Positions 54,061 through 57,366 of a stretch of DNA of 64,000 bases are shown one piece after another. The stretch covers positions 62,001 through 126,000 of the forward strand of contig JARSSP010000071.1 of NCBI GenBank assembly GCA_029624675.1, given 5' to 3'. The stretch is from Candidatus Contendibacter sp. Its GTDB lineage: Bacteria > Pseudomonadota > Gammaproteobacteria > Competibacterales > Competibacteraceae. A model generated the notes under the pieces. The model made no database searches, was not told the DNA's origin, and saw only the letters and a program-made list of their open reading frames with translations. The position numbers and the translations under genes are program-made. Numbering within the stretch: position 1 is the first letter of the stretch; the number at the start of each line of letters is the position of its first letter.

Positions 54061-54338
54061 TGATGGGTTTCGTTCCTCAACCCATCCTACAACTCATTGT
54101 TTTCGTAGGATGGGTTGAGCGTGGCGAAACCCATCGCCGGGCCGGGACGAGGAAGGATTGATGGGTTTCGTTCCTCAACCCATCCTACAACTCATTGTTT
54201 TCGTAGGATGGGTTGAGCGTGGCGAAACCCATCGCCGGGCCGGGACGAGGAAGGATTGATGGGTTTCGTTCCTCAACCCATCCTACAACTCATTGTTTTC
54301 GTAGGATGGGTTGAGCGTAGCGAAACCCATCGCCGGGC
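54061..54338. repeat. Tandem 98-bp palindromic repeats (three copies)
   Basis: The unit begins TGATGGGTTTCGTTCCTCAA at 54061, 54159 and 54257, a period of exactly 98 bases; the copies are nearly identical and the third lacks the spacer GGGACGAGGAAGGAT. Each holds a palindrome of about 74 bases: GATGGGTTTCG...CAACCCATCCTAC, a CTCATTGTTTTC loop, then GTAGGATGGGTTG...CGAAACCCATC. This is the widespread REP/MITE-like element with TAGGATGGGTTGAGC arms. A cruciform or mRNA hairpin per copy is expected. It fills the gap between fructokinase and the NACHT gene. Confidence 0.92.
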
Positions 54339-54469
54339 TGGAAGCCAGTCAGTTGAAATCTAGCCTCGAATTGGCGACAGTGCTTTATCATTTGAGGACA
54401 GATTCGTTGCCGGATTTGGTGGCGCGTTTGCTGGGATTCTCGACGGACAACCAGGATTTTGAAACATGA
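54311..54469 (+). pseudogene. Remnant small ORF coupled to the NACHT gene
   Basis: From about 54338 an in-frame stretch reads LEASQLKSSLELATVLYHLR and then TDSLPDLVARLLGFSTDNQD, ending FET-stop at 54467-54469. It looks like the C-terminal 44 residues of a genuine small protein, and its stop overlaps the NACHT ATG as ATGA. There is no ATG: the open frame upstream enters the palindromic repeat, with a TTG at 54311 as the only start-like codon before a stop at 54302. A 5' end lost to the repeat array is the simplest reading. Confidence 0.45.
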
Positions 54470-57300
54470 TGGACTGGCAAGAAATCTGGAATTGGCTGAG
54501 AGATCAGCAAAATCGGGAAATAGTGACATTTATTGGCGGCGGCCTCGTGGTCGTACTGGGCGGCATCTGGGCGGTTTACACGCATTTCTTTCCTCGGCCC
54601 TCTCCACCTTCGGGCGATGCCGACCAAAGGAATAACGCGACCGCTCCCGCGCTCCCGCCGAACTCGGACCTTCCCGCTTTGCCGCCGCCCGATCCCGCCG
54701 CTTTGCGCGCGGTGTATCTCCGTTTGCGGGCCAGCGAGTGGCGGACCATCCCGCTGGATGTGCTCGACGAGCGGTCCGCCGACCCCGCCGCCCGGCGGTT
54801 GACCCTGGAGCAGGTGTACGTCGCGCTGAACGTGACCACGCCCCGCCCCAAGACGCTCTATCTGCAAGGCGTAGAAAACCACGAGCAACCACCGCTAGGC
54901 GCGGTGGAAGCGCTCTGTTGCGCGAAACGGCGACGCATGGTGCTACTGGGGCAACCGGGTTCCGGCAAGAGCACGCTGGGGCGCTATCTCTGTTTAACTC
55001 TGGCGGAAGCGTTGTCGGAACCGGACGCCGCGAATCTGGCGGAACGACTGCCGGGCTGGAATGGCCCTGTCCTGCTGCCGGTGTTCGTGCCGCTGCGCCA
55101 ACTGGCGGCCGGTCTGTCGGCGACCGATCTTGGAAGCGCCAGCCAGATCGAAGCCTTCATCCGCCAGCAGATGGATGCGCGGGATGCCTTGCGCGGTTTC
55201 GGCGAGCCGTTGCTGAAAGAGTTGGAAATCCAGGGCGGGCTGGTGATCTTCGATGGCCTGGACGAAGTGACCGGCGCGCAGCGTGCGCGGGTCAAGCAGG
55301 CGCTCCAGGAATTCGCCGACCTGTATCCCCGTTGCCGGGTTTTGGTGACGTGCCGGGTACACAGCTACCGGCAGGATTCGGCGTGGCAATTGAACTGGGC
55401 CGCCGAACACACGCTGGCGGATTTCGATCAGAACCAGATCGAACGCTTCATCGAGGCTTGGTATCACGCGCTCGCCGTCTTGAATCCCGGCAGTCCGGTC
55501 GATTACGCCGGCAAGGCGCGCACCCTGAAAACCGCGCTCGCCCCGAATGATCCGCGCGGTTTGCGGGACTTGGCGGGAACGCCGCTGCTGCTTACCGTGA
55601 TGGTGATCGTCCACGCCTACAAGGAACTGCCGGACAGCCGGGTCGGGGTGTATCGGGAATGCGTGGACATCCTGCTGCTGCGCTGGCAAGGGGCGCGCGA
55701 AGGCGAGGCGCGACGGCCGCCCTTGTTGAACGCCCTGCTGCCGCACGGCGGAACTGCCTCGAAGGTTAATCAGGGGTTGCGGGAAATCGCGTTCGAGGCG
55801 CACCGAGACGGCGAGCAGGATCAGCAAGGCGGTGGCCGAGCGCTGGTGAGCGACGTGATCATCGGCGGGGTGATGTGCCGCGAACTAGGGCCGCAAGGCG
55901 CTGAAATATTTCTGGATTACTGCCGGCACACCAACGGTCTGCTGCTGGTGGATCAAATCGTTGCGAGAGAAGCGGCCGAGCCGGCGATCCGCTACGTCTT
56001 TCCCCATTTGAGCTTCGAGGAATACCTGGCGGCGCTTTATCTGTTGCAAAAACCGGACGGCGGATTAGGAGAGGTCGTCAAACTGGCTGGCGATCCGGCC
56101 TGGTGGGAAGTAGCGCGGTTTTACGGGGAACACCAGTGTCACGACGAGTACAGCGCCAACCGGTATTTGGCGAAAACGCTGTTGGCGGAACTGTGTCCGG
56201 ACCGGGCACCACGGGACCGCAACGATGGCGACTGGCGGCGGGTGTGGCTGGCGGGCGCTCTGCTGCCGGGCTGGCGGCGGAGCGTGCCCACGGACGCCCG
56301 CGAGCCTGCGCTAGAAAACCGGATCGCGGGCGACGTGGTGGCGCTGGTGGAAACGCCGGCGGCGCTGCGCCAGGACGCCCCGGCTCGGGCGGCGATAGGG
56401 CGCGTGCTGGCGGCGTTGGGCGATCCCCGCCCCGGCGTCGGACTCGGTTCGGACGACCTGCCGGACGTACTGTGGGTGCGGATTCCGGGCACGCGAGCCG
56501 TTCGCGCCAGCGGCCGGTTTCCCGGCTTTACTGGCTTGCGTTTGGGTAACGGCGCGAAACCGGATTCTGAAGCCAGCGAGGACGAAAACTGGCCCGCCGA
56601 TGCCGCGCCGCTGGAAGTCGTCGATTTTGAACTGGCCGCTTATCCGGTGACGGTGGCGCAGTTCCGGCCATTCGTGGAACAGGACGGTTATCGGGAAGAA
56701 CGCTACTGGAGCGCGAACGGCTGGTGGTGGCGGGAAAGAGAGAACCAGTCGGAACCTTGGTTGTGGAATGATCCCAACTGGACCGTGCCGAATCAGCCGG
56801 TGATTGGAGTTTCCTGGTACGAAGCCGAAGCGTATTGCCACTGGCTGAACGAACAATTGCGCCAGCCGCTTGGAACCTTCCGCTTGCCGACGGAAGCGGA
56901 ATGGGAATGGGCGGCGCGCGGCCCGGAAGGGCGGCGTTATCCGTGGGGAGACGAGTGGGAAGCGTGGCGCTGCAACGGCGCGGAATCCGGTCTTGATCGC
57001 ACCAGCGCAGTGGGCTGTTTTCCGGGTGACGCGGCGGACTGGTGGCGGGTTATGACGGGCGGCGATAGTCGCTTGCACGATTTATCCGGTAATGTCTGGG
57101 AGTGGGCGTCGTCGGTGTATAACAAGGATTATTCAGAATCAAATCAGTCAGTTATCGACGCCAATTCCGGCGGTTCCCGGGTGCTGCGGGGCGGCTCGTG
57201 GGCCAACGTTCCGGGGTGGTTGCGGTCGGCCGCTCGCTACTGGAACGACCCGCGCGGTTGGGACGGCAACGCCGGGTTCCGTCTCGCCAGGACCTTATAA
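54466..57300 (+). CDS. Membrane-anchored NACHT ATPase with C-terminal formylglycine-generating-enzyme (C-type lectin) domain
   Basis: A 944-residue protein in four parts. Residues 17-40 are one membrane helix, residues 45-90 a Pro-rich linker. A STAND/NACHT ATPase follows: Walker [12 protein letters not shown] (161-170), Walker [13 protein letters not shown] (257-268), [12 protein letters not shown] (sensor) and [16 protein letters not shown] (512-527), the typical NACHT winged-helix end. Residues 665-944 are an FGE-sulfatase/SUMF1 domain: [66 protein letters not shown] and GFRLART. No catalytic Cys pair of true FGE is evident. The final 40 residues look like a DGR variable region. STAND proteins with such sensors act in signalling, immunity or conflict. 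A GC hairpin with T run follows the stop. Confidence 0.9.
57178..57291 (+). other. Candidate diversity-generating-retroelement variable region
   Basis: Codons 904-941 read [20 protein letters not shown] and [18 protein letters not shown]. In ordinary FGE domains this segment is conserved as SWNNNP...RSANR...NP...NNN-GFR. Here the fixed scaffold (VLRGGSW, P, LRSA, R, P, GFRLA) is kept while the intervening positions have become A, V, G, W, Y, W, D, G. Most variable codons end in C or T (GCC, AAC, GTT, GCT, TAC, AAC, GAC, GGT, GAC, GGC, AAC, GCC), as expected from AAC/AAT template codons mutated at adenines. No template or reverse transcriptase is in the window. Confidence 0.55.
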
Positions 57301-57336
57301 CCCTTTGATCTTTTTTCTTTTTCCCTTTTTGGGGGT

Positions 57337-57366
57337 CCAGGGGGCGAAGCCCCCTGGCGTTTTTTT
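57337..57366 (+). terminator. Terminator-like hairpin after the NACHT gene
   Basis: The stem CCAGGGGGC/GCCCCCTGG (9 bp, loop GAA) at 57337-57357 is followed by CG and seven T (57360-57366). It ends the NACHT transcript. Hairpins just past the variable region are also a required element in DGR targets, so it may serve both. Confidence 0.85.

Follow-up and report, generated by a model that had tools for sequence, protein, structure and literature searches.

A NACHT ATPase whose FGE tip was probably rewritten by a diversity-generating retroelement, with a matching template in a sister species

The window, that is, the whole 64,000-nucleotide stretch of DNA that was analysed, corresponds to C71:62001-126000 of a 4.74-Mb, 74-contig assembly, the named close relatives of which are Candidatus Contendobacter and other Competibacteraceae. 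The gene considered here and the features in and behind it are, in window coordinates:

54466..57300, + strand: gene for a NACHT-FGE variable protein of 944 aa (open reading frame, translation and Pfam)
54523..54588, + strand: likely N-terminal membrane helix, ~residues 20-41 (read from the translation, no predictor)
54931..55467, + strand: NACHT ATPase domain, Walker A and B intact (PF05729, 2.5e-8)
56611..57291, + strand: FGE-sulfatase/C-type-lectin-fold domain (PF03781, 1.4e-44)
57169..57291, + strand: variable region (VR) of a diversity-generating retroelement (DGR), family A (homology to a sister-species template repeat, TR)
57304..57328, + strand: VR-associated T-rich element TTTGATCTTTTTTCTTTTTCCCTTT (pattern search of the own genome)
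57337..57357, + strand: 9-bp GC hairpin with a GAA loop, followed by T7 at 57360-57366 (sequence, shuffles)

The NACHT match spans residues 156-334 and lies above the Pfam cut-off, the FGE-sulfatase match spans residues 716-942 of 944, and both Walker motifs can be read intact in the translation, with VIFDGLDE as Walker B. A preliminary description had proposed intact NACHT and FGE domains, a membrane helix and a particular scaffold over the last ~40 residues; the Pfam scores bear out the domains, a hydrophobic segment is present at the N terminus, and the C-terminal sequence is as claimed. Solved relatives of the FGE domain found by sequence match include FGE itself and the Treponema DGR variable protein 2y3c (7.8e-9), and these matches place the fold. 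The VR lies at the 3' end of the gene, inside the C-type-lectin-fold domain. In catalytic FGE, the catalytic cysteines are expected in the C-terminal segment; the last 40 residues of the window protein contain no Cys.

The flanks of the gene belong to sugar metabolism (a PfkB kinase upstream, a fructose-type PTS operon downstream), and no defence island is visible among the neighbouring genes. The protein matches no PADLOC family, and the match of its NACHT part to EruA is weak and below the cut-off; because no defence model matches, we do not file the gene as a known antiphage system. Searching the named genomes with the whole protein gave no match. Just upstream of the gene, at window positions 54061-54338, there is a REP-like repeat made of 2.8 near-perfect 98-bp copies with inverted repeats.

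Five dispersed genes of this genome have one VR backbone in common (family A: the window gene, C52, C29, C24 and C26a), and eight others have a second, related backbone (family B); adenine-only VR scars are found in twelve sensor genes besides the window gene. When the paralogues within this one genome are compared, pairs of family A VRs differ at only 0-3 of 92 non-adenine template sites and at 11-18 of the 26 adenine sites. The ~200 residues upstream of the VR are 35-79% identical among the family A proteins, and in the same upstream part third codon positions at shared residues agree in a fraction of only 0.44-0.76. Ordinary descent does not preserve 92 bases almost unchanged next to saturated sequence and at the same time let 26 bases scattered among them vary; template copying that misreads adenines can. 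This upholds the earlier proposal that the last ~40 codons are a DGR VR, as the differences among the five paralogues, on a common backbone, are nearly all at adenine-derived positions. A retroelement-free alternative, in which FGE paralogues diversified by ordinary duplication and gene conversion under diversifying selection, would find ample material in a genome with 34 FGE-domain matches, some of them closely related, but we regard it as very improbable: the differences sit opposite template adenines, the VR backbone is near-identical while the adjoining FGE sequence is saturated, and relatives carry the inferred template next to a reverse transcriptase (RT) gene (see below).

The proteins that carry these tips are diverse. 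Within family A, the N-terminal part is a NACHT domain in the window protein and caspase-like in two others, and two have no recognised N-terminal domain. Besides the window NACHT protein, tips of family A or B are carried by caspase-like C14 proteases at C52, C26a, C26c and C26e and by a protein kinase at C71:38511, the remaining carriers in the genome having no recognised N-terminal domain; in relatives, they are found on TIR and metallophosphatase-NACHT proteins.

The template of family A was inferred by setting its variable sites to A and was searched for in 39 genomes of the family. The top matches proved to be real TRs rather than VRs, one in G018 (contig C49, 94%), which is SCELSE-2-Con, another Ca. 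Contendobacter, and one in G004 (contig C397, 88%). An RT gene adjoins the TR at both loci and a bAvd gene is present too in G018, where the cassette runs in the order Metallophos-NACHT-FGE target, bAvd, RT, TR, TIR-FGE target. Compared with the G018 TR, the window VR is changed at 16 of 26 adenine sites and at 4 of 92 other sites (p=7.5e-10); mismatches thus concentrate opposite template adenines, as had been expected, here against the TR of a sister species. Two of the four non-adenine changes (sites 21 and 83) look like lineage-specific TR bases because they are common to all five family A copies; the remaining two are terminal in the compared stretch. For family B, the template likewise turned up in G018, on contig C26 (G018:C26), where a second RT adjoins it.

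Where VRs and a TR occur in the same genome (G018 and G004), five of the six VRs match the TR at all non-adenine sites; the sixth, VR2 of G018 C49, fits apart from a single-base indel, as does the local VR of G001. One of the five fitting VRs, in a caspase-FGE gene on contig C35 of G018, agrees with the contig C49 TR at 91/91 non-adenine sites and has 15/26 adenine sites changed; this fit to a TR on another contig supports trans action in the clade. The closest homologue of the N-terminal part of the window protein (60% identity) is encoded at G001:C333, where it is a target with a family A RT and TR immediately behind it, so that the window gene may itself once have belonged to such a cassette; behind the window gene, no remnant of avd was found. 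Although the own contig C24 is syntenic with G018:C26, the VRs of the two targets belong to different families, A in the former and B in the latter, which suggests a switch of template or of FGE tip.

The own genome has seven RT matches and contains three intact local DGRs (C53, C59 and C41) that target FGE genes, each with a different TR of its own. Non-adenine mismatches between VR and own TR number 0/89 at C53, 1/91 and 0/91 at C59, and 0/90, 0/90 and 2/90 at C41; the exception is C53-1 (17/89), whose VR is one codon longer than the TR and misaligns in the ungapped comparison. With three local DGRs whose VRs mostly fit, DGRs figure prominently in this organism. The C53, C59 and C41 TRs were rejected as the template of the window VR, from which they differ by 33-60 non-adenine mismatches. 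A degenerate TR pattern run over the whole assembly matched only the window VR itself, BLAST of the inferred TR returned the five VRs and otherwise just weak partial matches but no TR, the closest RT in the 74 contigs shares just 51% identity with the cognate RT, and a bAvd family search found the C53 copy as the only intact bAvd. Two further observations concern the same genome. The FGE genes at C72 and C59:55163-55888 end in tips that resemble VRs and are related to each other (RVLRGGAF...GFRVVASPLVFSDR); they match none of the five TRs and are perhaps a further orphan family. At C7, an RT adjoins repeated units TTCAAACCTTGCCCTGATGAAGAAGGGATTAAGAC and looks like a CRISPR-associated RT.

The preliminary description had taken the window gene for a remote target of a DGR elsewhere in its genome. 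One part of this stands, in that dispersed targets of one template occur in the clade (G018); the other does not, since the three intact FGE DGRs of the own genome have non-fitting TRs and the assembly holds neither of the parts, a cognate RT and a cognate TR in the same genome, that would complete a DGR for this VR. It had also held that the absence of an RT or template from a complete genome would speak against the idea; the cognate pair is indeed absent, from an assembly that is a 74-contig draft rather than complete. For want of a cognate RT and TR in the assembly, we make no claim of present activity and file the gene as a DGR-made, orphaned target.

Traces of a lost core are found elsewhere in the genome. 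At C29, the first 40 avd codons remain after the VR, 95% identical to the G018 Avd, and are followed by a phosphatidylserine decarboxylase gene, and at C24 there is a frameshifted avd remnant after the VR (both by tblastn). The flanks of both loci are syntenic with the cassette-bearing contigs of G004 and G018, and deletion of avd-RT-TR at the two sites is the simplest reading of these sequences. That the five backbones are nearly the same points to very recent activity and is hard to square with an old loss, so that either the core was lost recently or another core is unassembled. In the latter case, cognate RT, avd and TR would still exist in the organism and would at present diversify the window gene in trans, as a remote target. 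The small number of backbone differences agrees with this, as do the changes at sites 21 and 83 in all five VRs, as if from one lineage-specific template, the trans targeting observed in G018, and the location of some relatives' TR/RT loci on short contigs or contig ends (G018:C26, G019:C477 and G037:C141). However, the estimated completeness of the assembly is 100%, the TR and RT searches covered all of it and were negative, and avd is truncated at two places with unrelated sequence directly behind; we entertain a hidden, active core as a possibility, tentatively. A search of IMG/VR for a phage carrier gave only RT relatives of 35% identity and thus no evidence for one.

The sequence TTTGATCTTTNNTCTTTTNCCCTTT lies directly 3' of the family A VRs and of most family B VRs. 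Allowing <=3 mismatches, the 25-bp T-rich pattern has 10 matches in the 4.74 Mb of the own genome, all just after family A or B VRs, and is present in 19 of the 39 family genomes; the reversed control gave 0 in both searches. A VR motif was found directly upstream of the element in 23 of 30 inspected loci, while among the remaining 7, one begins at contig base 1 and two are overlapping low-complexity matches. The element follows none of six TRs. An order-level search added one genome beyond the family, with no match there, and a literature search found no paper on a T-rich post-VR motif, which, the collection being limited, is weak evidence.

The 9-bp hairpin with a GAA loop that had been noted after the stop codon is present, with the sequence CCAGGGGGC-GAA-GCCCCCTGG, 36 bases after the stop and 45 bp after the end of the VR; no chance match was obtained in 100 shuffles of the window, and with its T7 it is terminator-like. 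Across the loci, a GC hairpin with varying stems and with loops mostly of GAA, GCA or other GNA follows the T-rich element. A terminator role is equally possible, and on its own the hairpin is indistinguishable from a terminator. It may accordingly be no more than an inherited transcription terminator of paralogous genes, T-rich element included, that plays no role in homing. A T run indeed follows most of the hairpins. Against the terminator reading, the hairpins at C62, C26d and C53-2 have no T run; in 274 kb of own sequence, from loci chosen around VRs, only 2 of 12 hairpins with T runs lacked an upstream VR; and the T-rich element is conserved in sequence where the neighbouring coding sequence diverges, and is absent after TRs. 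We give the terminator some credence, short of adopting it. The element may instead mark targets for retrohoming. An extended form of this proposal, which we likewise advance with reserve, is that the VR, together with the 25-bp T-rich element and the GNA-loop hairpin behind it, is a portable target cassette, in which the element would label recipients such that one DGR core could diversify many immune-type proteins (NACHT, caspase, TIR, kinase) in trans; targets would survive when the core is lost and could be diversified anew once a core is regained.

For the window gene itself, we have high confidence in the following reading: it encodes an NLR-like NACHT ATPase with a DGR-rewritten FGE tip, one template type served several proteins, and the cognate core has been deleted or is unassembled, leaving the window VR orphaned. 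The domains and the adenine footprint agree with the earlier suggestion that a STAND (NACHT) ATPase here carries a C-type-lectin/FGE tip diversified by a DGR. The product would be anchored in the membrane and its C-terminal FGE/C-type-lectin domain would act as the ligand-binding tip. An RT working with Avd would have copied the TR RNA, misreading adenines, and the cDNA would have replaced the VR and so rewritten the last ~40 codons, a homing step known here by its footprint alone. Several signalling proteins, unrelated to one another and encoded at loci throughout the genome, would have drawn on one such template, with the T-rich element and hairpin just 3' of the VR as the putative cis target tag. 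With the avd-RT-TR core deleted at two loci, or missing from the draft, the diversification of the window VR would be recent and possibly ended. From what is typical of the family, we infer that sensing of a phage or other ligand would lead to NACHT oligomerisation and, presumably, to an immune output.

Several parts of this picture have precedents. In Thiohalocapsa PB-PSB1, DGRs 3 and 6 have STAND/NACHT plus C-type-lectin targets in multicellular bacteria (Dore et al. 2024, PMC10907252), and there, as here, a NACHT/nSTAND ATPase carries a CLec/FGE tip diversified by a DGR, a genome has several DGR loci, trans action explains some of the targets and some loci are incomplete. Unlike in PB-PSB1, all the NACHT, caspase, TIR and metallophosphatase-NACHT targets of this clade draw on one template type, the genome assembly lacks the cognate core, and a conserved T-rich element follows the VR; Contendobacter is not mentioned in the main text of that paper. 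The accessible part of a study of cyanobacteria describes genome-dispersed remote variable proteins with CLec tips on kinases and orthocaspases and TR-like VRs (BMC Genomics 2020, PMC7517822), which resemble the dispersed kinase and caspase targets found here, except that the cyanobacterial DGR cassette is in the same genome; its authors propose that remote targets may be switched on by features acting in cis on their 3' side, and in that part of the text no specific 3' element is named. In Treponema denticola, according to the portion available of PMC4891356, strains without RT and TR keep leftover target genes and remote targets occur; those targets are, as far as that portion goes, different proteins with no STAND ATPase. 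Homing of Bordetella phage BPP-1 needs a GC-rich hairpin of 7-10 bp after the VR, with a free stem sequence and a constrained loop (PLoS Genet 2011, PMC3240598). The hairpins described here likewise come shortly after the VR and are GC-rich, but the phage has 4-nt GRNA loops, 4-34 bp from the VR, compared with mostly 3-nt GNA loops here and 45 bp in the window, and here a 25-bp T-rich element lies between VR and hairpin and a T run often behind.

DGR targets of STAND-CLec type, targeting in trans and loci that are incomplete (PMC10907252) were thus already known, as were remote kinase and caspase targets (PMC7517822) and core-less leftover targets (PMC4891356). What is new is the case of this clade, the recovery of a lost template and a candidate 3' tag. 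Inferring a lost template from orphan VRs and then locating it in relatives is a practical method, and the tag is a testable sequence proposed as the signal for the choice of trans targets, where cis-acting 3' features had been suggested before with, in the accessible text, no such sequence named. For the organism, a sludge gammaproteobacterium, the window gene and its relatives provide a clear case of NLR-like ATPases with retroelement-hypermutated sensor tips, and one template type for proteins with different effectors is a bacterial analogue of a shared receptor repertoire. If the target cassette is indeed portable, such targets would persist after the loss of the core and could be diversified again when a core returns.
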